The position numbers and the translations under genes were made by a program. A model generated the notes under the pieces. It was not told the origin of the DNA and made no database searches. It was given only the letters and a program-made list of their open reading frames with translations. This document shows, piece by piece, positions 3,890-56,848 of a stretch of DNA of 64,000 nt (positions are counted from its first letter, which is position 1; every line of letters begins with the position of its first letter). The stretch is from Candidatus Poribacteria bacterium. Lineage in GTDB: Bacteria > Poribacteria > WGA-4E > WGA-3G. The stretch spans positions 124,001 to 188,000 of the forward strand of contig JAPPFM010000002.1 in assembly GCA_028821605.1 (NCBI GenBank), in the 5' to 3' direction.

Positions 3890-4120
3890 TGGCAGTTACA
3901 TTTTCGTTAGTGCGCCGCAGGTGTTCCCGCACCCGCGACGCTTCGCACTGCCATAGAACAGGTATGACAGCACTGGTTTCTATTGTATCAGATAACACGC
4001 TTTGTGTGTCATCTATAAAATGGAAACCAGCACCTATACGGAAAGATTGCCATCACTACGAAGTGCGATGACGGATTCCCGTCGTCTTCGTTTCTCTTAC
4101 AGAAGCACTCCCCGTATAGA
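3890..4120 (+). ncRNA. Candidate structured RNA or long folded 5' leader
   Basis: The 564-base gap 3773-4336 holds no convincing gene but is full of inverted repeats just after a strong promoter. AGTGCG at 3909-3914 pairs with CGCACT at 3944-3949. An imperfect 58-base hairpin runs 3973-4030 (CTGGTTTC ... GAAACCAG, with extended pairing inside). CTATACGG at 4034-4041 pairs with CCGTATAG at 4112-4119. Nested in that, GATGACGG (4067-4074) pairs with CCGTCGTC (4079-4086, one G-U) and is flanked by ACGAA/TTCGT. It may be a small RNA, a structured leader of the 4337 gene, or a MITE-like repeat. No known RNA family was recognised and no terminator was seen. Confidence 0.35.
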
Positions 4121-4336
4121 GAACACTCACCCCAAAACACGTATATCAAAGCAGTTTTGAGATTTTAAGTATTCGGATATTGTCATGCTCTTACTTATGA
4201 GATGCGGGCATCCGTAGGTGAACGCGTTGCCTAATAATATCTCTTTATTAACTGCTTTCTACCTAAAAAGTTGAATGGATGAACAAGTTCCCACAATTAA
4301 ACTATTGTAGGGTCTAATATATGGGGTAAAAAAATT

Positions 4337-6556
4337 ATGAAAAAGCAACTGATTGGTTTTACATTCCTATTTTTCGTTTGCTTATTAATGCCATTCGTGG
4401 CAATGGCAGACTTCTCCGTTGACCTATCGAGATCTGATCCTCCCTGGACCATCATCCCCGGTGAAAGCATAACATTGACTGTTAAAGTTCAAGAGAATGG
4501 GTATCCAGCATCAGGTCAAACAGTGACATTTAGTGTGACGCGGGACGGTGAGCTTACGGCCGATGAATTTGCGTCGGTAAGTCCCACAAGCGCGACAACT
4601 GATAGCAACGGACAGGCACAAACGACGCTATCGGTTCCGAGTGATACATCAGCCTTCCAGTATGTAGTCTGGGCGAAGCTTGACAATGGCCAAAGTGATT
4701 CTTATTCGGTGCCAGTTACTGTTGCGTCAGATGGTGCCGAGCTAGGTCTGGCCATGAATAATCAGCGCACCTACAAGCCTGGTGAATCGGTTGGGTTTAC
4801 TTTCTGGCTTCAGAATTATAAAGATGGGACGGGCGTATCAGGTAAAACGGTGACGTTTAGCGTGAGTCCAGATAATGGGACTGCGTCGTTAAGTCCCACA
4901 AGCGCGACAACCGATAGGGGCGGAGCTGCCCGGACGACCCTGGTATTGGGGAGTAATGCCTCAGGACGTTACAGCGTCACAGCGACATTGGACGGTGGTA
5001 AATCTGTAAGCAGGTCAACTAGGTCAGTTCATAACCCAAACAAACCATCAGGTTTTTTCCTCGGCATGGAAGTTGCTAATGGTGTTTTTCCTCTCAATCC
5101 AGGTGAGAGCAGAACGTTTACTGCTCATGTACAGAAATTGGTACAGAACGTTGGGCGCTATCGCCATGCATCAGGTGAAACGGTGACGTTTAGCGTGAGT
5201 CCAAACGATGGGACTGTGTCGCTGAGTGCGACAAGCGCGACAACGGATAGCAACGGAAAGGCGAGTACCTCGTTGATTACGGGGAGCGGTTCCTCCGGAA
5301 CGTACACGGTCACAGCGACGGTGGCCAATGGTCAATCTATAAGTGGAACTACGACAGTTGAAGCATCATCATCGCCGCCACCAACCGATCCAAACCCAGA
5401 TCCCTTACCGGAAGTCATACAGATTCCGCAGGAACAGCAGGCTGCCCCTGAAGGTCCGACGGGTAATACACCAGGGCAGCAGGCTGCCCCTGAAGGTCCG
5501 ACGGGTAATACACAAGGAACGCCGCGTTCGGTCACCACTAACACACCTGCTAATACAACACGGACACCGACCCCTGATACACCTGAGCAACAGGCATCTG
5601 ATTTAGTTGTTGATGCCCTTGAAGTAAACAAAAATGTCTTGGATGCGGGTGAATCTTTTACACTTTCCGCTGTTGTTAGAAATCAAAGCGAAGAATTGTC
5701 GTCTACAGGAACGCTGACATACTATCAATACTTTGATGATAAGTCCGTAGAAAAGGTGGGTGAATCTGAGATTGCCTTACTTGCTGCTGGTGAAACAACC
5801 GATGTCGGTATTACACTGACAGCACCAGAAACGTCTGGAACACACTCTTATTATGCATGCGTTAGCACGAACTGTACATCTATTGTCAAGATTTCTGTCA
5901 GATCAGAAATAAAAGAATTGGTAATTTCTTCTGGAAATAATCAGACAGGAACCCCTAACAACGATTTGCCTAATCCTATTTCTGTACGGGTATTAGGTGA
6001 AGATGGCATAGGTGTTCCGCGTGTTCTCGTTATTTTCCGAGTTGTGTCGGGCAACGCTCGCATGAGGAGGGCTGGGGGCCCTAAAAGATGGCGCGGTGCG
6101 TCTGCTTGGACAGATAGTGAGGGTTACGCGAAAGCGTATGTTACTCCGACGGGCAGTGAGCCAATAGAGATTCGAGCAAGTGTCGATGGTTTAGACCCAG
6201 TCGTCTTTACGGTTAATCCTGAACAGGTGGGTGGTGCTCCTTCAGCACAGTTCCCACAATCTCATGTAACTGCTCTGTTGGCGAACTACCCAAATCCGTT
6301 TAATCCCGAGACATGGATCCCTTATCGGTTGGCAGCGGCAGCGGATGTCACACTCACCATCTACGACATAAACGGACAAGTGGTTCGGCAGTTAGCACTC
6401 GGACATCAGGCTGCGGGGATGTATCAGACGCGGAGCCGTGCGGCATATTGGGATGGGAGAAACGCGTTCGGTGAACCTGTCGCAAGTGGTGTGTATTTCT
6501 ATACGCTCACCGCTGGCAACTTCACCGCAACACGGAAGATGCTGATTTTGAAATAG
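4337..6556 (+). CDS. Secreted Big-1/CARDB repeat protein with C-terminal sorting-like domain
   Basis: 739 aa with a cleavable signal peptide (residues 1-24, ending FVAMA). About residues 25-345 are three Big-1-type Ig domains sharing VTFSVSP, TSATTDSNG and YTVTATV blocks. Residues 346-420 are a Pro/Thr/Gln linker containing a 14-residue duplication. Residues 420-525 look like a CARDB domain, 525-640 like a fourth Ig domain, and 645-739 a FlgD/T9SS-like C-terminal domain (NYPNPFNPETW, then ASGVYFYTLTAG and TRKMLILK at the end). Such C-terminal domains mark exported surface proteins in Bacteroidetes-type and poribacterial genomes. An adhesion or matrix role is likely. The ligand is unknown. Confidence 0.85.
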   Translation: MKKQLIGFTFLFFVCLLMPFVAMADFSVDLSRSDPPWTIIPGESITLTVKVQENGYPASGQTVTFSVTRDGELTADEFASVSPTSATTDSNGQAQTTLSVPSDTSAFQYVVWAKLDNGQSDSYSVPVTVASDGAELGLAMNNQRTYKPGESVGFTFWLQNYKDGTGVSGKTVTFSVSPDNGTASLSPTSATTDRGGAARTTLVLGSNASGRYSVTATLDGGKSVSRSTRSVHNPNKPSGFFLGMEVANGVFPLNPGESRTFTAHVQKLVQNVGRYRHASGETVTFSVSPNDGTVSLSATSATTDSNGKASTSLITGSGSSGTYTVTATVANGQSISGTTTVEASSSPPPTDPNPDPLPEVIQIPQEQQAAPEGPTGNTPGQQAAPEGPTGNTQGTPRSVTTNTPANTTRTPTPDTPEQQASDLVVDALEVNKNVLDAGESFTLSAVVRNQSEELSSTGTLTYYQYFDDKSVEKVGESEIALLAAGETTDVGITLTAPETSGTHSYYACVSTNCTSIVKISVRSEIKELVISSGNNQTGTPNNDLPNPISVRVLGEDGIGVPRVLVIFRVVSGNARMRRAGGPKRWRGASAWTDSEGYAKAYVTPTGSEPIEIRASVDGLDPVVFTVNPEQVGGAPSAQFPQSHVTALLANYPNPFNPETWIPYRLAAAADVTLTIYDINGQVVRQLALGHQAAGMYQTRSRAAYWDGRNAFGEPVASGVYFYTLTAGNFTATRKMLILK
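5435..5514 (+). repeat. In-frame 42-bp tandem duplication in the linker
   Basis: The unit starting CAGCAGGCTGCCCCTGAAGG at 5435 recurs at 5477, exactly 42 bases later and almost identical. It encodes QQAAPEGPTGNT twice. Near identity implies a recent slippage or duplication in the flexible linker. Confidence 0.9.
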
Positions 6557-44998: not shown

Positions 44999-47608
44999 CT
45001 ACCGTATCATTGAGATGTGGAGCGGGCGGCTTGCTGAGCGTCCCTCCGCATCCACACACGTTAGCACATGTTGCCCTTTAACAGGTGTGAACCAGTGTTC
45101 CTCTCCCGCCTTTCCTTTGAAAATTAACTCACCGTCCAGAAACCAGAACAAATTTTGTGTCCTGTTAGAAGTCGAAGCGGATAGACGAATTTTTTGGTTC
45201 TCCAATGGCACACCTGCCCGAATGTAGTAGGTGGTGTCTTCTGCTGGGGATAGAATAATAGGGGCGTTCCCTGCGATTGTACCGGTACACAATGGATTAT
45301 GTTCTGGCAGAACCGGCACGGCAAATCCATTTTCTGCTAACCAAGTCGCTGCCTCAGCGGGCCACTCTTCAAATATTTTTCGGTGCGCGTTATCTGTCGA
45401 AAAATTTCGACAGTGAGAACAGAGACTATACCCTGTAGTTTCATCGATATAGATACGTTTGTGAATTGCACAGGTCGCTACAGGTGAGATACCGGGGATG
45501 TATACATCGCTCTTATGGGTAGGGCAGTGTGGTGAAACCGGTGCACCACTGAGCGCACAGACCTGCCGTGTTTTCAATTGTTTCGGCTTGGTGAACCATC
45601 GATGTGTGTCCTGCCCTGTTAGTGCTGTAAAGAGTGCAAATAAAATAGGGGTTGCGGCATCTGTCCCACTCAGCATCGGAGAACCCCTTCCGTCGAAGTT
45701 GCCGAGCCACACACCAATCGTTAATGTTGGTGAGTACCCGATACACCATGCATCTCGGTGCCCGTAAGACGTACCAGTTTTCCATGCGATCTTCGGCAGG
45801 TTCATTGTGCTTTCAAAAACTTCTAAACTTTTAACTGCGTTCGCAGGGCGTTGTGACGTTGTGAGCATCTCGGTTATGATGAAACTCGTTTCCGCTCGGA
45901 GTAAACGTTTGTTTGAATAGTTTTCAGTTTTCAGTTTTCGGTTATCAGTTAAAGAAGTATTTACTTTACCGAAAACCTCTTGTAACTGACCGCTGACCAC
46001 TGATGACTGATGACTCCGCAGTGCTATTTGATAAGGTTCAAATTCTCCCATATTTGCCAACCCTGCGTAGAGTGTGGTCAACTCAAGCAAATTCACTTCA
46101 CATCCACCGAGAACCATAGAGAGTCCGTACTTTCTGTCGGGTGCAAGCGTGGAAATGCCAGCCTGTTTGAGGAAGGTGGGCAGTGTGATATTCTTCAGAC
46201 GTGCATTCAGGTTAACGGCGGGGACATTGAGAGAGCGTGCCAATGCCTGACGGGCGGTAACGTAGCCATTATATTTGCCATCATAATTCGCGGGTTCATA
46301 TCCAGCGTAGCTGACAGGCACATCGAATAACAGTGTTTCTGGCGTAATCAAACCCTGTTCCATTGCAAGCGCGTAGACAAAAGGTTTGAGTGCAGAACCG
46401 GGAGAGCGCGGCGCGAGCGTCCCGTTTATCTGTCCCGACGCGCGCCGGTCGAAAAAATCGTGAGAACCCACCATTGCTAAAACCTCACGGCTTTGTGTAT
46501 CCATAACGACAATCGCACCTGTGCCAGCACTATGAGAGCCTTGAAGGCTTGGTTTTCCTGCTGCATCCAAATATTCGCGAAGAATACGTACGGCAGTCTC
46601 CTGAACCTTTGTGTCTATTGTCGTGTATATCCTACCGTCTGTTGTAGGTGTTGCATGTCTAACCAACATGCGTGAGAGATGGGGTGCTTTGAATGGGAGT
46701 GGATAACGTTTTTTAGGGATCGGCTCTTGCGATGCTTCCTGCCACTGCTGTTTGGAGATCTGTCCACGTGTGAGAAGACGGTTCAGCACTTTTTCGCGTG
46801 CCTTTCTCGCATTTTCTGGAAATCTATCCGGTCGCAAACGTTCTGGGGCATTCGGGATAGCGGCGAGGAGTGCGGCTTCGCCGAGGCTAAGCGCGTGTTG
46901 AGGTTTGTTAAAGTAAAACCGAGATGCTGCCGCTGTTCCAACGATGTTCCCTCCGTAGGGAAGCATATTGAAATAAAAGTTTAAAATCTCAGATTTAGAG
47001 TAGGCATATTCAAGTTGAAGGGCGCGGAACGCCTCGATGAGTTTGTTTGGAATATTTCGGGCTTTAGGTTCCATCAGTCGCGCGAGCTGCATGGTAATGG
47101 TTGAACCGCCGCGCACCACCTCACCTGCTTTGAGATTGTCATAGAGGGCGGTTGCAATGGACACTGGGTTGATACCGTAGTGGTAGTAAAACCATCTGTC
47201 TTCCGATGTTAGTATTGCTTGGTGTAATAACACGGAATGGCTCTCGGAAACCCTCGGCTCTCGGAAGCCTTCAGCAGAACGGTTGATGGCTATTTCACTG
47301 ACTTCTGATGGAAACCGATGGCTGATGGCTATTCGCCACATGCCATCGTCCGCTAAAAATGCTCGGAGCCACTGTCCGTTTCTGTCCAGCACAATCCGAG
47401 AGGGTGGTGGATGCAGACGTGCTTTCGGCAGCGGGAAACACCAGTTTGCGAGCATGAAGAGAATGATGATAAGGAGTGGGGGTAGCAGCCAAAATAGTCT
47501 TTTGAATGGAAGGATGGAAAGGGGGAAGGATGGATGGTCCCACAATCTTCCAATCTTCCAATCTTCCAATCTTCCAATCCTCAAGCCTTCCATTCTGATT
47601 TTTTTCAT
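44999..47608 (-). CDS. pbpC: Penicillin-binding protein 1C
   Basis: 869 aa. The cytoplasmic tail (1-30) is followed by a membrane anchor (LFWLLPPLLIIILFMLANW). The GT51 domain has SEDRWFY with the catalytic Glu, GGSTITMQLARL and EALLAAIPNAP. The transpeptidase has SPGSALKPF (Ser-x-x-Lys) and KTGTSYGH. A C-terminal BiPBP_C-type domain contains several Cys. The ATG overlaps the TGA of the alpha-2-macroglobulin gene, the same order as E. coli yfhM-pbpC. Two oddities: an octamer repeat encodes IGRLEDWKIGRL in the tail, and about 33 residues (SSVVSGQ ... DNRKLKTEN) are an inserted dispersed repeat. Confidence 0.93.
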   Translation of the reverse strand: MKKIRMEGLRIGRLEDWKIGRLWDHPSFPLSILPFKRLFWLLPPLLIIILFMLANWCFPLPKARLHPPPSRIVLDRNGQWLRAFLADDGMWRIAISHRFPSEVSEIAINRSAEGFREPRVSESHSVLLHQAILTSEDRWFYYHYGINPVSIATALYDNLKAGEVVRGGSTITMQLARLMEPKARNIPNKLIEAFRALQLEYAYSKSEILNFYFNMLPYGGNIVGTAAASRFYFNKPQHALSLGEAALLAAIPNAPERLRPDRFPENARKAREKVLNRLLTRGQISKQQWQEASQEPIPKKRYPLPFKAPHLSRMLVRHATPTTDGRIYTTIDTKVQETAVRILREYLDAAGKPSLQGSHSAGTGAIVVMDTQSREVLAMVGSHDFFDRRASGQINGTLAPRSPGSALKPFVYALAMEQGLITPETLLFDVPVSYAGYEPANYDGKYNGYVTARQALARSLNVPAVNLNARLKNITLPTFLKQAGISTLAPDRKYGLSMVLGGCEVNLLELTTLYAGLANMGEFEPYQIALRSHQSSVVSGQLQEVFGKVNTSLTDNRKLKTENYSNKRLLRAETSFIITEMLTTSQRPANAVKSLEVFESTMNLPKIAWKTGTSYGHRDAWCIGYSPTLTIGVWLGNFDGRGSPMLSGTDAATPILFALFTALTGQDTHRWFTKPKQLKTRQVCALSGAPVSPHCPTHKSDVYIPGISPVATCAIHKRIYIDETTGYSLCSHCRNFSTDNAHRKIFEEWPAEAATWLAENGFAVPVLPEHNPLCTGTIAGNAPIILSPAEDTTYYIRAGVPLENQKIRLSASTSNRTQNLFWFLDGELIFKGKAGEEHWFTPVKGQHVLTCVDAEGRSASRPLHISMIR
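45915..46015. repeat. TCAGTT-type dispersed repeat inserted in frame in pbpC
   Basis: It starts GAATAGTTTTCAGTTTTCAG and ends in ACTGATGACTGATGACT, with AACTGA/TCAGTT words in opposite orientation at the two ends. The left core GAATAGTTTTCAGTT recurs, inverted, at 34386-34401 and at 44983-44999. It is translated through without a stop. Confidence 0.65.
47544..47580. repeat. Octamer minisatellite in the pbpC 5' end
   Basis: AATCTTCC is repeated four times without change (47544-47575), followed by AATCC. Because 8 is not a multiple of 3, each added unit changes the frame; three units (24 bp) restore it. Length changes would therefore switch pbpC translation on or off. Confidence 0.8.
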
Positions 47609-50600
47609 TGTTCTGCGACCACTTCAATCCGCATGCTACCTTTTACTGCAGATTTTGTTGGATCGTACATCGCTTCAGCGACAATAGGAGGTAACGTAAA
47701 TTCACCTTGTGTGACAGCGCGTAGGGCGTAATAGAACTTACGTTCACGTTGCCGTGGGAAGGTACCGAAGAAAATAAGCCGGTCGTCGCGAATATCGAGA
47801 TAGTCCGGTTTGAAGTCTTGCGCTTTCAACCACGGGATACCCGCACGGGACTCCAGCCGCGGGTTCTCAATCTCAAAGCCTGTGGGCAACATATCGACGA
47901 TAACGACGTTTTCGAGGTTAGCGGTAAGGGCTTTGACGGTTATCTCCGCAACGATTAAATCGCCGTGCACAAATGTACCGGTAAGTCCTTCACCATCTTT
48001 GTTGAAATAGCGGCGGCTCACCTGTAACTCGCGCTCATATTCCTCAATAAAGGAATCGCGTTGGATACCGAATGCACTCCAGTAATAGTAGCAGCTGCCT
48101 TCGCCTTCGACGGAGAGTTGGATGCGCGTTCCGTCCCATGCTTCATCGGTGTAGCGCGTTTCCGTTGCATCAAAATTCGCGAAGTGTTCGCCGTTAAGTT
48201 TCAGGGTGCCGGTGTAATTTCGGTCCATCTGCTTCTTCAAAATCTTACCTAATGCGAGGAAAGCGAAAGCGTTCTCCTGTGTTGTTGCCCAGCGATTGCC
48301 TTCCGATGCCGCTTCACTCAAGTGCTTGACAAACATCGGAACTGATGGATGGTTTGCGTTGACTTCAGCAAGCACATCCAGCATAATGGCTTGGGCGCGA
48401 ATAGACGAGTCAAACGTTCCACCCGTTTCCCGTTGTCCTGTTCCTTTACCATTTCCATTAACAGGCAGTGATACCGACACCGGAAGCATTGACAAGGCGG
48501 TTTCCAGTTCGCCACTGAGCGCAAACGCCCCTGCGAGTTGGAAATGGCTGTAATCGCTGAGTCCGCTTAAACCCCTATTTTTCAGGTAGTGCATTGTCCC
48601 TCGATCAGGTTGACCGGCGGCAGCTAAGACGTAAGCTGCGTAGGTTGCAAGCGAAATCTCTCTCCTTATCTTTTTTTCTTCATTTTCGTTTTCCATGTTT
48701 GGTGAGAATTTCGCTTGTGCTCTCAAACCTTCCAGCATTGCCTCGTAAACTCGATCTGCGACTTCGTAACCTGCTTTCCGTGCTTCTACAAGGAAGTGGG
48801 ACGCGTAGATGCTGCTCCATGGGTTGACGTAAGTACCACCGGGCCAGTAGCTAAAACGGTTGTTTGACTTCAGCATACTTTCGATTTTTATGATACCTGA
48901 TGTGATGTAGTAGTCTACTGAATTTTCTGCTGCCAGCATCGGTTCGACACTTCGCGCTAAGTCGCTGAAGTAGAGGAGTGGAAAGACCTTGCTCGTTGTC
49001 TGTTCCAAACATCCGTGTGGGTAGCGGACAAGGTAACGGAGGCTGTCCGCAAATTTGATACTTGGGAATGGTGATAGCGTCAGACTGAATTCTGACGAAT
49101 CTGGTATCAAATTCGCAGGCAAAATGAAATCTACAGGTTCACCGGCGCGTACCACCCCCTGTCCTGTTTTTGTAACGGGTGGAGCGACAGAGCGCAGTGG
49201 GATTTTTACCTCCAGCTGTGTCGTCTCGGTATTACCATGCGCGGAGAGATTGAAATCGGCTTCTCCTATGGCATCGTGAACGAGAATATCAAAAAAGACC
49301 TGGGCTTCTATGCCCGCCTCAACGCTCTTATCTATACTGAGAGCGTTTTCAGTTTTCAGTTGTTGGTTGTCGTAGGGGTTGGGTTTCCCAACCCGTTCGG
49401 ACGAGGTAACCTCGCCCCTACGACTGAGGATTGAGGACTCTGAACTTGCTGAAAGGAGTTGCACATCGCCTGCCGCTTGCAATTGTACCTTGAATTCTCC
49501 GTCCTCACCTGTACCATTGAAAAGGGTGACGGGTACACGAATCTTGTCACCGCCTGCGAGAAATCGGGGGAATGTTGGTGTTAAGACAATGGGTTCTCGG
49601 ACGGTCAAATGGGCTTCCGATGCCCCGTAATCTCCCCCGGTGAATGCAACTGCCATTAGCCGCAGTGTTCCGTTGAACTGCGGAATTTTGAATTGGACAG
49701 TGCCGCGTCCGTTTCCATCCGTTCTTACAAAGCCTGACCAGAGCGAAACCGGCTTCACCCGCCGAATACTACCAGTATTCAGTCGTTTCTGCCGTCCTGC
49801 CTGACGCATCGCTCCATCTCCACCTGTGCTTGAATTATCGGTAACAGCTGCGATTTCAGGTAGAATCCCACTATACAGGTCAAAAGAGCGCGTCTTAAGC
49901 CCGCGTTGTCGATAGAAGTAGTCGTGTGGGTTAGGCGTTCTGAAGTCTGTTAGCGTGAGAATCCCTTCATCAACAGCTGCGATACAGACATCGTATTTTT
50001 GCCAAGAGCGTCTACCGTGGACTTCAAACGCTATGGTCACCTCGCTGTTAGGGCGGACTGTTACCTCGTTATTTTCAGACTTGGAGACTTGTAAACTGCC
50101 ATCCGCAGATGCAGCGTCCTCTTTCGGATTGAGGAGCGAAATCTTCTTTTTCTTACCGGTATCATCTATCTGCTCAAGCGACATCTCTACAGAGAGTCGT
50201 CTCCGCGTTTCATCTATTTTCAATGGAATTACGCCAAACGCGCGCGCAGGAAGAGGCGACTGTTCACCACTCGCGGCCGCTTCCGTTGGGATGGAACGGG
50301 TCAGCGTCGCGGAAAGATACACATTCGGTCTATAGGCATACCGGACCGGAATTGATAGAGTCGCGGTATTGTTTTTCATTACTATTGTCCGGTGACTTAA
50401 CACCTTTCCTCGCTCGACAGTAAGCAAGAGTGTGCCGGGGAAGGGTGCCTTAATGGACAGTTTCGCTGTTTGTTCCGGACGGTAGGCAGGTTTATCCAGC
50501 GTTAGGTCTAACCGAGTAGGGTGCTCCATAGAGACAGGCGTACGCCCCCATCCGCTGACATAAAACTTTAATTCTGCTGCTGCTGTTGAGGCGATGTCCT

Positions 50601-53331
50601 CAATACGGACACGGTATTCGCCATAGTCTGAGGGTGTTAACGTCACCGTTTGCGCTTCCTCCGCTGAAGTTAACATCTGTGTTTCCACTTCTGTCATCTG
50701 CGGTTCAGAGACGTACTTGTAACGTCCTGCGGTGTTCTGCCGAAGTATTGTGTTCCAATGGACCTTGTATAGACTGAGTTTTAAAGCTCGTCCCGGCGCG
50801 GCTGCCATTGCATCGTCGATAGCGATATAGTCGAAACGAAGCGGTTTGTTAATTTTTACATCTCCGGTCGTTGTCTGTCGGAGTCCGACATAATGCGAGT
50901 ATGGGTGGATAACAACTCGGTGTGAAGCGGTGACTGCTCTGCCACCGACTTCGCTGACGGTTGCTGTCAGAATCCCGTTTAGCAAGGAGGGAGCTTTCAA
51001 TGTTGCAGGAATTGTGAACTGATAGTGCGTCTTACCCGTTGTGTCAGTTTTGGCTTCTCCCAACTCAATTCTCTGTTTCTCAAAATTTGAGCTGGTATTT
51101 CCGAAAACGAACGAACTCCATTTTTTTTCATCTGTGTCTTGTAGGACGCTGTCTGTTAGGAACGGGACTGCTTCTAAATCGCATGAAACTTGCACCTTCC
51201 GTCCTACAGCTGGAGGACCGAACAGATTGATGGCAGTGACTTCAATGTCAAGTTCATCTCCGAGTTTATAGGCGGCTTTGTCCGCTGTCACAGAAACTTT
51301 CATTCGATCGGGCATAAATTCTTCAACCTGAAATTGTGCGCTTCCAACGACCCGATCAGCGATCCGCATCTTGGCAATATAGCTGCCGGTCAAGGCATAA
51401 TCAGGAATGGGAATTTGCACATCGCAGGCACCACTTTTGTTTGTTTGCTGCCTTAACTCTCGCAAGATTCTGCCATCAGGAGAGATAACTTCAATTCGCG
51501 TAGGCAGCGGTTGTGGTATTTTATGCTTGGGTCCTCGGACAATGCCAGCGAGTTGAACAGTTTCACCCGGACGATAAACGCCCCTGCTGGTGTATAGAAA
51601 GGCTTCATAGCCTTTTTGCAGATAGGCGGAACCTGCGATATTGAAATCTACTGTTGCGATTTCATGCCGGTCCAATTGAATGAAAGCAAGATCATCGCGT
51701 TTCTCGACGGTGATCATAAAGGGTGTAAAGTTTTCCGTCTTCTCCGCAACATCTGTGAACTCAATGAATCCTGCCCAGTTGGTTGCACCCCTGAACAATG
51801 TTTGGTTGTTATCGCTGATGAGTTTGACGCGCGCGCTTGGTACGGGTTTACCGGTAGATAGGGATTTCACCCAAACGTACAGTCTATCTCCGAGGCGTTT
51901 AGCACTAATGCCCAAATCCGTGATGAGCACCCATTGATGTGCACTGTTCCACCTATTTCGTGTGTTTCGTGCTACAACTTTGAAGATACCGACATGTTCA
52001 TCTGAGAGATACTCCTCCAAAGAGATAGGTGTCGTCACCTCTTCGTTCAATTGAGAAGACACATCAAGCACTTCTGTATGAATGGGTTTACCTAAATTTC
52101 TGCTCCAACGGCTCCATCTCTCTAATTTCGAGACATAGATAAGATTGTTTGCAAAAACTTTCTCGATATTGAGTTCCACGCGTTCCACGTTAATCGTTGC
52201 GACCCCCAGGTTCAGCTGCCCCTTTCTCGCGAGGAAGAAGCCATCACCGAGAAACCGGAGCTGCGGTTTAATGTCGGGAATCTTGAGCCGCGTCATGTAG
52301 TCCTGTTTTAAAACGGCATCGTTTCGTGCTGTTAAGCCTTTTTGAATCTTCAGTGTGTAGGTCGTCCGTCTCTTAAAATCGCCGTAGATTCTTATGTTTC
52401 GATAATCGGATGTCACCTTATATGTTACTGCCGGTGTAAGTTCTAAGTACGGCTCAATTGTGTCACTGAGTACCGGTGCACTGAAACTGACCGAAATATA
52501 GGGCGTACCATCACTTTCCCAAACATCTGAATATGTTACACCGAGTGTCCCTCTTCCTCGGAGTATCACGGGCGTAACGCTTGGTTTTTCCAAACCAATT
52601 TTTCCACCTGTACACTTGAATCCCTTTTCAATCCTAATTTTTATCTCTCGGTTCACCTTGCCGCGTTTTATTCGTTTTGTTTTGAATCTTACCGTTCGTG
52701 CTGTCGCGGCGTTGGTTTCAATTTGGTATGGAACTTCTGTTCCATCGTCGAGTTCAATGGAGAGGTGTGCCTTTAAGTCGACAATGGTTACCGGATAGTT
52801 AAATGCTATTGTGCCAGACCCCGTTACATGCTCATTGTGAGAAGTAAACTCCATACGTGTCTGTTGGACTGCGAAAGGTTCGGTGGCGAATTTAAACTCT
52901 TTTTGTCCGGTGAGTAGGAAGGTTTCGGATGGGTTGAGTTCTGGTGTGAGTTGGACAGTATATTGTGTAGAGGGTGCTAAAGGGGCATCTAAGAAAAAAC
53001 CGACTCTATCGCGCGCAGCCCAGCGGGCAGTGCCTTGGACGGCTGGCGTAAACCGAAGTGCCTCTGCTGGAACTTCAGTTCCGACACGCGACTTATCGAT
53101 GATTGCCTCTGAGAACGTAATCGAGAAATCAGCCCATTGTGGAATCTCTCCTTGCGGCGTGAAGGTCTTTACACTGTATCGTGTTCGTGCGCGCATGTTA
53201 CCTTGCACGATATAGAAGATACAGACACCGAGAAGGATGGACATCAGCCCAACTAAACCGATTAAACTTTTTAAAAGCAAATTTCGGTCCCTGGGGTTCG
53301 TCGAGGAATTTTTGGAAAGTTCGGCTGCCAT
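47605..53331 (-). CDS. yfhM: Bacterial alpha-2-macroglobulin (MG) family protein
   Basis: 1908 aa. An N-terminal membrane helix (SLIGLVGLMSILLGVCIFYIV) anchors it. Multiple MG beta-sandwich domains follow: YTSRGVYRPGETVQLAGIVRG, then MG7-like, then the bait region and KPVSLWSGFVRTDGNGRGTVQFKIPQFNGTLRLMAVAF. The thioester motif GCLEQ is intact (YPHGCLEQTTSKVFPLLY), followed by the alpha-helical thioester domain. It should trap proteases in the periplasm, with PBP1C repairing peptidoglycan. An inserted repeat near the bait-to-thioester transition encodes RGEVTSSERVGKPNPYDNQQ. The gene symbol is by homology and order. AGGAGA lies before the ATG. Confidence 0.92.
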   Translation of the reverse strand: MAAELSKNSSTNPRDRNLLLKSLIGLVGLMSILLGVCIFYIVQGNMRARTRYSVKTFTPQGEIPQWADFSITFSEAIIDKSRVGTEVPAEALRFTPAVQGTARWAARDRVGFFLDAPLAPSTQYTVQLTPELNPSETFLLTGQKEFKFATEPFAVQQTRMEFTSHNEHVTGSGTIAFNYPVTIVDLKAHLSIELDDGTEVPYQIETNAATARTVRFKTKRIKRGKVNREIKIRIEKGFKCTGGKIGLEKPSVTPVILRGRGTLGVTYSDVWESDGTPYISVSFSAPVLSDTIEPYLELTPAVTYKVTSDYRNIRIYGDFKRRTTYTLKIQKGLTARNDAVLKQDYMTRLKIPDIKPQLRFLGDGFFLARKGQLNLGVATINVERVELNIEKVFANNLIYVSKLERWSRWSRNLGKPIHTEVLDVSSQLNEEVTTPISLEEYLSDEHVGIFKVVARNTRNRWNSAHQWVLITDLGISAKRLGDRLYVWVKSLSTGKPVPSARVKLISDNNQTLFRGATNWAGFIEFTDVAEKTENFTPFMITVEKRDDLAFIQLDRHEIATVDFNIAGSAYLQKGYEAFLYTSRGVYRPGETVQLAGIVRGPKHKIPQPLPTRIEVISPDGRILRELRQQTNKSGACDVQIPIPDYALTGSYIAKMRIADRVVGSAQFQVEEFMPDRMKVSVTADKAAYKLGDELDIEVTAINLFGPPAVGRKVQVSCDLEAVPFLTDSVLQDTDEKKWSSFVFGNTSSNFEKQRIELGEAKTDTTGKTHYQFTIPATLKAPSLLNGILTATVSEVGGRAVTASHRVVIHPYSHYVGLRQTTTGDVKINKPLRFDYIAIDDAMAAAPGRALKLSLYKVHWNTILRQNTAGRYKYVSEPQMTEVETQMLTSAEEAQTVTLTPSDYGEYRVRIEDIASTAAAELKFYVSGWGRTPVSMEHPTRLDLTLDKPAYRPEQTAKLSIKAPFPGTLLLTVERGKVLSHRTIVMKNNTATLSIPVRYAYRPNVYLSATLTRSIPTEAAASGEQSPLPARAFGVIPLKIDETRRRLSVEMSLEQIDDTGKKKKISLLNPKEDAASADGSLQVSKSENNEVTVRPNSEVTIAFEVHGRRSWQKYDVCIAAVDEGILTLTDFRTPNPHDYFYRQRGLKTRSFDLYSGILPEIAAVTDNSSTGGDGAMRQAGRQKRLNTGSIRRVKPVSLWSGFVRTDGNGRGTVQFKIPQFNGTLRLMAVAFTGGDYGASEAHLTVREPIVLTPTFPRFLAGGDKIRVPVTLFNGTGEDGEFKVQLQAAGDVQLLSASSESSILSRRGEVTSSERVGKPNPYDNQQLKTENALSIDKSVEAGIEAQVFFDILVHDAIGEADFNLSAHGNTETTQLEVKIPLRSVAPPVTKTGQGVVRAGEPVDFILPANLIPDSSEFSLTLSPFPSIKFADSLRYLVRYPHGCLEQTTSKVFPLLYFSDLARSVEPMLAAENSVDYYITSGIIKIESMLKSNNRFSYWPGGTYVNPWSSIYASHFLVEARKAGYEVADRVYEAMLEGLRAQAKFSPNMENENEEKKIRREISLATYAAYVLAAAGQPDRGTMHYLKNRGLSGLSDYSHFQLAGAFALSGELETALSMLPVSVSLPVNGNGKGTGQRETGGTFDSSIRAQAIMLDVLAEVNANHPSVPMFVKHLSEAASEGNRWATTQENAFAFLALGKILKKQMDRNYTGTLKLNGEHFANFDATETRYTDEAWDGTRIQLSVEGEGSCYYYWSAFGIQRDSFIEEYERELQVSRRYFNKDGEGLTGTFVHGDLIVAEITVKALTANLENVVIVDMLPTGFEIENPRLESRAGIPWLKAQDFKPDYLDIRDDRLIFFGTFPRQRERKFYYALRAVTQGEFTLPPIVAEAMYDPTKSAVKGSMRIEVVAEQ
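49347..49440. repeat. Composite dispersed repeat inserted in frame in the alpha-2-macroglobulin gene
   Basis: A TTTTCAGTTTTCAGTT block is followed by a 52-bp double hairpin at 49371-49422: CGTAGGGG and CCCCTACG at the ends, with GGTTGGG/CCCAACC and CGAGGT/ACCTCG inside. The whole stretch is read as protein without a stop. Confidence 0.7.
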
Positions 53332-53799: not shown

Positions 53800-55020
53800 T
53801 CAGAACCAGAATCGCGACATCAGAATAATCTGGTCGGTACCTTGAAGTTGACGTAGCGTCCCTTTGTCCTGTATTGTATTATCGTTACCACGGTCGGCAT
53901 TCGCGAGGTTTGCCCAGTAGAAAATAGAGATTGCCCCATTTTCGATGAAATTGTATTGGGCACTGAGTGTCACTCGCTGACTTGCGTCCCCTTTAATTGT
54001 CCTATCTGGGTCAAATAATCCGTACCGACCCGAGACAGTGAGTTGAGGCAGGACGCGATATTTTGCGCCGATATAGTACCCTTTTGAATCAACGGCATCC
54101 GGTGCGAAGGAGGCTGCCTCTCCGCTGTTTCCAAAATTGAATTCCCCTTCAACACTCACGCCTGCATAAGAAGCGGTGAGAAACGCACCGATGAGTCGTT
54201 TCCAGTCTTCACCGGGTTTTTCAAATATACCAGAAATACCTGCCCGAACCGGTCCGAGTTGTGCGCCGAGGGTCCCGAGTCCCCCTTTCGCTGCTGCATT
54301 ATCAGTGTTAAAGAAAGCCGCGTTGTAAAAAACTTTCCGCGCACTCCCACCAAGTTCAACGCCGACATCTCGTTTGTTAGAGCCGAGACCATAACCTTCT
54401 CGGACAAGAATGTTGTGGTCTTTCTGTTTGATAGCAAACGGTAAGCGGAATTGCCCGACTTTGACGTAGAGGTGTTTTGGTATAGCATCTACCGTTGCAA
54501 ACGCGTTCATTGTTGTTCCAGCGTTGTTGGAGAGGGTAAGTCGGACATGCTCTGAGGCTTGCGCATTGAATGTTACTTCTGCTTGCATAAGCAGAAATCT
54601 GTCAATCGAAGAGTGGCATGAATTGCATCCAGCGATGGCATTTTCCTCTTGGTCAACGTGTGTTGTCTTAATGAAAGCGGTTTGGAAGTCAAGTGAAGTT
54701 GTGAGTTGCTTGACAATTTCCTTGGCTTCTTCGCTTACGGTGTCCATATCAAAATCTTCGGGAAATTCAAAATAGTTCTCTTCAAAAATTTCACCGATTC
54801 GATTTCGGGGTCCGCCACCAGCCGGGTCAAGATGACAAAAGCTACATTCCTTCTCAAGTTCGGTTGCAAACTCAGGGCGTGCCTCCACCACGGTTGGTAA
54901 AAAAATGCTGAGGACAACACTGGCTATGAACACGAGTAGTAAGAGCAGTGATGCCCGCAGCGGTTTTGGCAGTGAGGTATTATTACGAGAGGACCTCACG
55001 CGATTGTTGTGTGGATTCAA
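53800..55020 (-). CDS. Diheme cytochrome c fused to an outer-membrane porin-like barrel
   Basis: 406 aa from a TTG start at 55020, with AAGGAG six bases upstream and the previous stop 10 bases away; the ATG at 55125 would overlap the P460 gene by 95 bases. A long hydrophobic signal (to TVVEA, about 47). Two heme c sites: CSFCH (59-63) and CNSCH (132-136). From about 150 it is a beta-barrel resembling phosphate-selective porin O/P (VKVGQFRLPFAIKQKD, DVGVELGG, YYIGAKYRVLPQLTVSGRYG) and ends in Phe (SRFWF), the outer-membrane signature. The layout recalls Fe-oxidising Cyc2 (heme plus barrel) but has two hemes. Likely electron passage across the outer membrane, inferred. Confidence 0.82.
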   Translation of the reverse strand: MNPHNNRVRSSRNNTSLPKPLRASLLLLLVFIASVVLSIFLPTVVEARPEFATELEKECSFCHLDPAGGGPRNRIGEIFEENYFEFPEDFDMDTVSEEAKEIVKQLTTSLDFQTAFIKTTHVDQEENAIAGCNSCHSSIDRFLLMQAEVTFNAQASEHVRLTLSNNAGTTMNAFATVDAIPKHLYVKVGQFRLPFAIKQKDHNILVREGYGLGSNKRDVGVELGGSARKVFYNAAFFNTDNAAAKGGLGTLGAQLGPVRAGISGIFEKPGEDWKRLIGAFLTASYAGVSVEGEFNFGNSGEAASFAPDAVDSKGYYIGAKYRVLPQLTVSGRYGLFDPDRTIKGDASQRVTLSAQYNFIENGAISIFYWANLANADRGNDNTIQDKGTLRQLQGTDQIILMSRFWF

Positions 55021-55030
55021 AAGGTGCTCC

Positions 55031-55606
55031 TTATTCGAGTTTTGTAAAAACGTAATCGATGTCTTTGACTCGGGCGTGGCATCCCCAGCAGACACCATCT
55101 TTGGCGATGACACGGAACTCGGCATCCGCCGCGTTTCGGACGTATTCGATGAACTCCCAATCGTTATGCTCTGGGTCTACGCCTGCTTTCTTCCGCATAA
55201 TCGCGATGAGTCCGATAAAGTCCTTACCGGGGCGGATTGCGTCCTTTACGACAATACTTCCATCCGGGTATGGGAACTGCTGGGTCCCGTTTGGTGCGAT
55301 GGTATCACGTGTTTGATTAACGTAAACATTTTTTGTGCCGTTGTGTGGATCGCCACCAGGGACTGGAGGAATGGGGTCTGCGTTTAATTTGAGCCACTGT
55401 GTATATCCTGCTACATCTTGGGGTAAACCAGGGAGTGCTACTGCTGCTGGTTCTTCGGGTTGGACAGGTTGCGTTTCCGTTACATCCGTAGTTTCTTCTT
55501 CTGACTGTTGAACGAGTTCGTCTAACTGTTTTTCTGCGCAGGCGGTGAAAAGTAAAATTATCGCCAATGCAGTGAGTAGGTTTCGGGTGTGTTTTAATTT
55601 TAACAT
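55031..55606 (-). CDS. Cytochrome P460-family lipoprotein
   Basis: 191 aa. Lipobox LFTAC at about residue 23. An acidic Pro/Glu linker (25-55) leads to a P460-type domain: KNVYVNQTRDTI, FPYPDGSIVVKDAI, GLIAIMRKKAGVDPEHNDWEFIEY, AEFRVIAKDGVCWGCHARVKDIDYVF. CWGCH binds heme c. In characterised P460 enzymes a Lys cross-links to the heme and hydroxylamine or NO is oxidised; this branch (with DxxFxxL ending) is common but unstudied. GAGGAA lies before the ATG. It is followed 10 bases later by the diheme porin, so the two proteins are co-made and may form one electron path. Confidence 0.85.
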   Translation of the reverse strand: MLKLKHTRNLLTALAIILLFTACAEKQLDELVQQSEEETTDVTETQPVQPEEPAAVALPGLPQDVAGYTQWLKLNADPIPPVPGGDPHNGTKNVYVNQTRDTIAPNGTQQFPYPDGSIVVKDAIRPGKDFIGLIAIMRKKAGVDPEHNDWEFIEYVRNAADAEFRVIAKDGVCWGCHARVKDIDYVFTKLE

Positions 55607-55675
55607 GATGTATTCCTCAACTTTCGGATAATAAATAAAAGTTAAAAAATCTTCTCTCTTATGACCGTATTTCTA

Positions 55676-55704
55676 AGTATACCACAAGGTACGGAGTGTT
55701 TCAA
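55676..55704 (-). promoter_or_regulatory. Promoter of the P460-porin operon
   Basis: On the minus strand TTGAAA (55704-55699), a 17-bp spacer, TATACT (55681-55676), about 70 bases before the ATG at 55606. Confidence 0.65.
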
Positions 55705-55758
55705 GGAAATTTGTATAAATACGGATTTTTTTACGCGATATCCTCCTATCTCTTTTCG

Positions 55759-55788
55759 TTGCCTTTTTGCGTGTTGTTACTGTATTAT
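55759..55788 (+). promoter_or_regulatory. Possible ftsY promoter
   Basis: TTGCCT (55759-55764), an 18-bp spacer, TATTAT (55783-55788), about 68 bases before the ATG at 55856. Confidence 0.45.
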
Positions 55789-55855
55789 ATTAAAGCAGCA
55801 GACCCGATTTCTGCTAATGGCTATAGGTACAAAACAAAATAAAAAGGGAAACGTA

Positions 55856-56848
55856 ATGCTTAGAAATTTATTTAAAGGTGGTGATAAAAGCCACAATGAA
55901 TCCGATGCTGTAGATGAGCGGGGAAACTGGTTTAATCGGCTTAAGTCCGGCTTATCGAAAACCCGCGACCAGTTCCTGTCTCAACTGTCAAGTCTCCTAC
56001 GGGTTGGCAGAAAAATTGACGAAGATTTGATGGAGGAAATTGAGGAGATTTTAATCCAATCGGATGTAGGTGTTGATACCACATTGACGTTGATGGATAA
56101 CGTCAGGGAGAGAGTAAAAGCGGAAGGATTGAGCGATTCTTCCGAATTGGGATCGGTCATAAAATCCGAAATTTTGAATTTGCTTGGCGCGGATGTCCCA
56201 CTGCAGATTGAAAATGAGAAACCGTATACAATTTTAGTCTTGGGTGTAAATGGCGCGGGAAAAACGACAACGATCGGCAAACTCGCAAGTCGCTTTACCA
56301 CGAATGGACAACAAGTGCTTGTTGCTGCGGGTGATACGTTCCGTGCAGCAGCGGAGGACCAGCTTGCTATTTGGTGTAAGCGTGCTGGTGCGGAATTAAT
56401 TCGCGGTGGCGAGAATGCTGAACCCGCCGCTGTTGTCTTTGATGCGGTTCACGCAGCGAAGCATCGCGATGCGGATGTGCTAATTGTAGATACCGCGGGG
56501 AGGCTGCATACCAAAAAACCGTTGATGGATGAATTGTCAAAAATCGGGCGTGTAATGGGACGAGCACAAGCTGGAGCACCCCATGAAGTACTCCTTGTCA
56601 TTGATGGAACGGTGGGTCAAAATGCCCTAATGCAAGCGAAGATTTTCAATGAGGCGGTGCCGATTACAGGGGTCGCCGTTACGAAACTGGATGGCACTGC
56701 GAAGGGCGGCATTGTAATTGCGGTAAATGCGGAGATTGGTGCCCCTGTCAAACTGATTGGTATTGGTGAGAAACTTGACGATTTGAGAGATTTCGCGGGG
56801 GCAGATTTCGTTGAAGCACTCTTTGCAGATGAAACAACAGGCGCGTAA
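55856..56848 (+). CDS. ftsY: Signal recognition particle receptor FtsY
   Basis: 330 aa from the ATG at 55856 (AAAAAGGGA upstream); the longer frame has an unrelated Cys-rich start. The N domain (NWFNRLKSGLSKTRDQF ... LLRVGRKIDEDLMEEIEEIL) precedes the G domain: G1 GVNGAGKTTTIGKLA, AAGDTFRAAAEDQLAIW, G3 DTAGRLH, G4 TKLDGTAKGG and the closing IGIGEKLDDLRDF. The acidic A domain of E. coli is missing, as in many bacteria. It docks ribosome-SRP complexes at the inner membrane. Confidence 0.97.
   Translation: MLRNLFKGGDKSHNESDAVDERGNWFNRLKSGLSKTRDQFLSQLSSLLRVGRKIDEDLMEEIEEILIQSDVGVDTTLTLMDNVRERVKAEGLSDSSELGSVIKSEILNLLGADVPLQIENEKPYTILVLGVNGAGKTTTIGKLASRFTTNGQQVLVAAGDTFRAAAEDQLAIWCKRAGAELIRGGENAEPAAVVFDAVHAAKHRDADVLIVDTAGRLHTKKPLMDELSKIGRVMGRAQAGAPHEVLLVIDGTVGQNALMQAKIFNEAVPITGVAVTKLDGTAKGGIVIAVNAEIGAPVKLIGIGEKLDDLRDFAGADFVEALFADETTGA

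Follow-up and report, generated by a model that had tools for sequence, protein, structure and literature searches.

Poribacteria, a lineage known from sponges, are major symbionts of these hosts. In the genome of one of them, a 6.0-Mb MAG that is 98% complete, a stretch of 64,000 nucleotides (the window) carries a gene for a heme lipoprotein followed by a gene whose product combines c-type heme motifs with a porin-like C-terminus. This pairing raises the question of whether the second protein conducts electrons through the outer membrane, as an earlier note made from the sequence alone had proposed, and how it relates to known conduits. In the open-licence literature searched, we found neither a description of a diheme cytochrome-porin fusion, or of any cytochrome-porin fusion in Poribacteria, nor a report of extracellular electron transfer in this lineage.

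A P460-family lipoprotein gene precedes a cytochrome-porin gene

The P460 gene lies upstream of the porin-fusion gene, separated by a gap of exactly 10 bases (55021-55030), and a ribosome-binding-like sequence stands before each start (GAGGAA 5' of the P460 ATG, AAGGAG 5' of the porin-fusion TTG; Table 1). A P460-type lipoprotein with a CWGCH motif had been claimed, and both its lipobox and its match to Pfam Cytochrome_P460 (PF16694; E 2.5e-11, 44.5 bits against a cut-off of 27) bear this out. Likewise, the coordinates, the motifs and the terminal ...SRFWF agree with the reported 10-base spacing to a protein with two CxxCH and a C-terminal porin. The further claim that a single promoter drives the pair held in part: an extended -10 match is present 5' of the P460 gene, but promoter-like sites were no commoner in the overall scan than in shuffles, where such matches occur equally often.

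Table 1. Features of the gene pair and its surroundings (positions in the window)
Feature	Position	Strand	Details and basis
Penicillin-binding-protein-like gene	44999-47608	-	Paired with the alpha-2-macroglobulin-like gene; name read from translation
Alpha-2-macroglobulin-like gene	47605-53331	-	Flanks the pair on the side opposite to the ftsY-resembling gene; name read from translation
Diheme cytochrome-porin fusion gene	53800-55020	-	406 aa from a TTG codon; mature chain begins near Arg48, after a signal peptide
His202, candidate distal ligand of heme 1	54415-54417	-	Loop L3 (KQKDHNILVR); alignment of heme-bearing versus heme-free barrels
Met145, candidate distal ligand of heme 1	54586-54588	-	Strand 2; alignment of heme-bearing versus heme-free barrels
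Heme site 2, CNSCH	54613-54627	-	Residues 132-136 (mature 85-89), loop between strands 1 and 2; motif, predicted topology
Heme site 1, CSFCH	54832-54846	-	Residues 59-63, N-terminal module ARPEFATELEKECSFCHLDPAGGGPRN; motif, conservation, profile match to Cyc2 N-termini
P460-family lipoprotein gene	55031-55606	-	191 aa; lipobox LLFTAC (Cys23); CWGCH 173-177
ftsY-resembling gene	55661-56848	+	Flanks the pair; name read from translation
Sigma-70-like promoter match	55676-55704	-	Upstream of the pair; TTGAAA-17-TATACT, extended -10 (TG); consensus match only

Two conserved heme sites and a predicted 16-strand barrel

The mature 406-aa protein contains four cysteines in all, every one within a CxxCH. 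Two CxxCH motifs arose in 0 of 20,000 shuffles, and this result, together with conservation across the phylum, ruled out a chance origin of the two motifs. In an alignment of 31 homologues reaching down to 35% identity, no sequence departs from heme site 1, and L107 is the one protein that lacks heme site 2. Across the 60 loci, every full-length homologue other than L107 keeps both motifs, confirming the conservation on which the earlier reading depended. Since CcmE, of c-heme maturation system I, was found in the genome, covalent c-heme attachment is plausible; system I is likely present in the host genome, and a search there for ResB, of system II, was negative. We infer that heme is attached at both CxxCH sites of the fusion.

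Profile searches gave a Pfam Porin_4 match of the 406-aa protein at 22.5 bits, below the cut-off of 27, and a Porin_O_P match in only 3 of the 31 homologues (E<0.01). Nothing above cut-off was returned by an NCBIfam search, and solved structures searched by sequence, with a single sequence or a profile, yielded no useful match for the barrel. Structure prediction, which the earlier note had suggested and which would have refuted its reading had no membrane barrel appeared, produced a 16-strand porin barrel. The AlphaFold2 model (mean pLDDT 66.9, pTM 0.69) shows 15 clear strands and a weak one, running in mature residues from 59-72, 94-107 and 113-119 through the weak strand near 130 and onward to 350-358. 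Most connections on one side of the barrel are short turns, those on the opposite side are long loops, and the last residue is Phe. Foldseek matched this model to 16-strand porins with prob 1.00, among them OprP (2o4v, TM 0.58).

The earlier note had placed both hemes ahead of the barrel. This needed correction: heme 1 is N-terminal, while heme 2 falls between predicted strands 1 and 2. Because the termini would be periplasmic, as in such porins, the loop carrying heme 2 would be the extracellular L1, and heme 2 thus apparently sits on an outward-facing loop of the modelled barrel. The N-terminal 56 residues and L1 have pLDDT values of 30-60 and are poorly predicted, so that the heme positions were inferred from topology.

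Candidate ligands of the hemes came from the alignment. Met145 and the Asp201-His202 pair are present in 17 of 17 sampled heme-bearing barrels and in 0 of 10 heme-free relatives, in which Arg usually occupies the Met145 position; as the two groups are the two sides of one branch, this correlation amounts to a single evolutionary contrast and is therefore suggestive rather than statistical proof. Met145 and His202 go with heme 1 and not with heme 2, because monoheme proteins and L107 have both. In porins of the OprO/P-like type, L3 folds into the pore, and the location of His202 in this loop therefore suggests that heme 1 lies inside the barrel, probably within the pore to judge from these residue patterns. 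For heme 2, the alignment gave no clear His, Met or Lys candidate that is invariant with this heme and missing without it, the closest candidates being His183 and Lys198 (93%).

Distribution and history of the fusion

The porin fusion is near-universal in the phylum: 74 of the 85 genomes have it, among them 52 of the 56 good ones, and it also occurs in 53 of 60 relatives. Scanning genomes returned 62 loci, 60 of them from Poribacteria and the remaining two from Nitrospirae (L109) and Geomonas (L110); these two match in the heme module only, which is there fused to other membrane domains. At another locus (L043, G052:C284, 790-2033, + strand), the barrel gene is broken into two overlapping frames, the first of which contains the two heme motifs; this may reflect a frameshift or an assembly error.

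Searches of Nitrospirota and Desulfobacterota genomes also recovered fused barrels that have an N-terminal CxxCHxNPTGGGxRN but lack the L1 heme, as well as heme-free Porin_O_P-like proteins. Heme 2 was found in none of the matches listed from the 246 genomes of Nitrospirota and the 297 of Desulfobacterota, and plasmid records gave no match to the poribacterial barrel. A heme module of the form CxxCHxDPxGGG stands on a membrane protein in L109, L110, L165, L167 and L175, from genomes of the same two phyla; in L109 the fusion is to CopD and cytochrome b5 domains (Pfam). As a similar module is joined to a membrane protein at each of these loci, it seems mobile between membrane proteins.

In the tree, all heme-2 proteins form one group (support 84/87), with L107 as its sister on a long branch. 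Because the tree unites the diheme proteins in this way, the simplest history would be that heme 2 was gained once, in Poribacteria. A fused barrel from the phylum of Geomonas (L170 in G357, ORF 1375-2673, - strand) has two N-terminal CxxCH (CLSCH, CNSCHVNPTGGGLRN); the one additional to the heme-1 motif is located ahead of that motif and not in L1, so that two hemes may have been combined here independently, with none in L1.

A proposed electron conduit and its alternatives

With a barrel modelled and the CxxCH sites conserved, an outer-membrane electron conduit is the best reading of the 406-aa protein and one that we consider probable; the earlier proposal of a diheme-barrel conduit thus stands as an interpretation, with heme 2 moved to a loop of the barrel. 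Heme 1, in the N-terminal module, would plug the pore, with Met145, His202 or both as its probable ligands from the barrel, and heme 2 would be positioned at the pore mouth on extracellular L1, about ten residues from Met145. Electrons could then hop by way of heme 2 and heme 1, in that order from the outside, between a small extracellular redox partner (a dissolved metal ion or a small molecule) and a carrier in the periplasm. More tentatively, we propose that the protein is an L1-exposed two-heme wire in a single small barrel, with covalent c-heme at the cell surface, and that this minimal type of conduit arose once.

By analogy with Cyc2, we lean weakly towards electron uptake. Export, by which extracellular acceptors such as metal oxides, quinone-like molecules or other cells would be reduced during anoxic periods in the sponge, would suit the heterotrophic hosts and the occurrence of fused relatives among the Desulfobacterota, where metal reducers abound; we nevertheless regard it as unlikely, given that there are two hemes only, no multiheme surface cytochrome nearby and no known acceptor.

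More doubtful is a role as a common solute porin, in which the hemes would serve the structure or a redox-sensing pore gate and bring about no net passage of electrons through the membrane. The barrel does belong to the Porin_O_P/Porin_4 neighbourhood, and a pore-plugging module could act as a gate, but two strictly conserved c-type hemes, one of them on an outside loop, would be costly and unusual for this purpose, and the precedent for a fused heme-barrel, Cyc2, is electron transfer.

We further consider it improbable that the fusion is a Cyc2-type iron oxidase proper, oxidizing dissolved Fe(II) at the surface and using its second heme as an adaptation to seawater or sponge tissue. Published criteria define Cyc2 by a single CXXCH, AXPXFAR[Q/K][T/Y] upstream of it, PXL four residues downstream, and a C-terminally fused 16-strand OprO/P-like barrel, at a length of at least 365 (Keffer 2021). 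The poribacterial protein shares the architecture (406 aa, 15 clear strands plus a weak one, OprP among the Foldseek matches) and may share a related N-terminal module, which hhalign matched to Cyc2 homologues, taken from plasmid records with a query peptide composed from published motifs, with E 2.8e-4 and probability 41 over 17 columns, HMM searches being weak. Also in favour of iron oxidation are the marine hosts and sediments and the P460 gene beside the barrel gene, which recalls the small c-type cytochromes adjoining Cyc2 homologues. On the other hand, profile comparison aligned the N-terminal module alone, and not the barrel, with Cyc2; P460 is the sole neighbouring cytochrome, with no cytochrome chain; and Poribacteria have been described as carbohydrate degraders, a paper on their energy metabolism mentioning neither iron metabolism nor extracellular electron transfer, a point that also counts against the conduit reading as such. 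Filing the protein as Cyc2 was ruled out by its two CxxCH and by the absence of both R[Q/K][T/Y] and PxL.

The P460 protein as a probable auxiliary partner

Pfam, a PDB sequence search and a structure model all assign the lipoprotein to the P460/c'-beta domain, and the top 8 Foldseek matches are all P460/c'-beta. Lys121, invariant in every poribacterial copy, aligns with Phe61 of McCP-beta at the cross-link position, equivalent to Lys70/78/106. Ala135, likewise invariant, aligns with McCP-beta Gly82, where active P460s have Glu96 or Asp102, the alignment being gapped just before this position, and the counterpart of the McCP-beta cap residue Phe32 is His88. On the basis of the published P460 table, Lys121 and Ala135 therefore predict a cross-linked heme without hydroxylamine oxidation. 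The protein would be a heme protein at the membrane, probably with a Lys cross-link, and its role would be NO binding or electron relay.

A search across genomes, recommended in the earlier note, showed that in 49 of the 57 loci that could be tested the P460 gene stands immediately 5' of the barrel gene, although the pair is often broken. In family f2 (L115, L116) P460 is unlinked to the barrel, three f3 genomes retain the barrel but have no P460, and four genomes have P460 but no barrel; in most families without an adjacent P460, no other cytochrome gene adjoins the barrel. These unlinked, P460-less and barrel-less genomes ruled out P460 as an obligate partner; it is a frequent companion, and would be auxiliary rather than essential. 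Elsewhere in the MAG that contains the window, and unlinked to the barrel, lies a gene for another P460 lipoprotein, which has two P460 domains in tandem (L119, G000:C32:78000-88000, ORF 3940-5127, + strand) and is also present in relatives.

Least probable of all is a surface nitrogen-oxide or hydroxylamine system in which P460 would act on NO or oxidize NH2OH and send the electrons by way of the barrel, since the adjacency conserved over two families and the ubiquitous cross-link Lys are set against an Ala at the catalytic carboxylate position, a feature shared with native NsP460, a protein without NH2OH oxidation, and against many genomes with only one of the two genes or with both unlinked, leaving the earlier suggestion of reduced-nitrogen oxidation unsupported.

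Implications

If it is a conduit, this near-universal two-heme cytochrome-porin gives Poribacteria a redox link to the sponge matrix. With two hemes in one chain of about 360 residues, it would be among the smallest plausible complete conduits and a good test object for the minimum number of hemes needed to cross the outer membrane and for the surface assembly of a heme-bearing loop. Should the L1 heme be real, the outer-membrane assembly machinery must insert a loop that carries heme.

Comparison with known systems

Relative to NeP460, McP460, McCP-beta and TtCP-beta, the poribacterial P460 shares domain, fold and CxxCH, and has Lys at the cross-link position; it differs in being a lipoprotein, in having Ala instead of the distal Glu/Asp carboxylate, and in carrying His at the cap position, usually Phe or Arg in known P460/c'-beta proteins.

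With OprO/OprP (Pfam Porin_O_P), the fusion has barrel type and strand order in common, whereas these porins are without hemes and mostly show Arg at the strand 2 position that Met takes in the heme proteins. The monoheme fusions with CxxCHxNPxGxGxRN from Nitrospirota (L159, L160, L162), a Poribacteria class (L045, L046, L048) and Desulfobacterota (L170) align over both module and barrel and possess the Met and the L3 Asp-His of the diheme protein, but have no L1 heme. MtrAB/MtoAB/PioAB and PCC serve the same inferred purpose, passing electrons through an outer-membrane barrel, yet use a separate 26-strand barrel and a multiheme cytochrome in place of one chain with two hemes and 16 strands.

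Cyc2 (Acidithiobacillus, Mariprofundus; Cyc572 of Leptospirillum), whose heme module is thought to plug the barrel, likewise combines a signal peptide, a short CxxCH module beginning at AxPxFA and a 16-strand barrel in one chain. It has one CxxCH, in contrast to the two conserved ones here, the second in L1; the poribacterial ARPEFATEL retains AXPXFA without R[Q/K][T/Y], and DPAGGGPRN follows the heme motif instead of PXL (CSFCHLDPAGGGPRN). Cyc2 homologues on plasmids of Caballeronia, Methylocystis, Paraburkholderia, Ideonella, Polymorphobacter and Acidithiobacillus (L124-L129) are annotated only as 'hypothetical protein' or 'cytochrome C', and most adjoin c-type cytochrome genes. The earlier statement that the protein fits neither Cyc2 nor MtrAB holds for the strict definitions of both, but its architecture works like a Cyc2 fusion with an extra heme. 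Overall, the porin fusion is best read as a two-heme variant of the fused, Cyc2-like conduit rather than a strict member of Cyc2.
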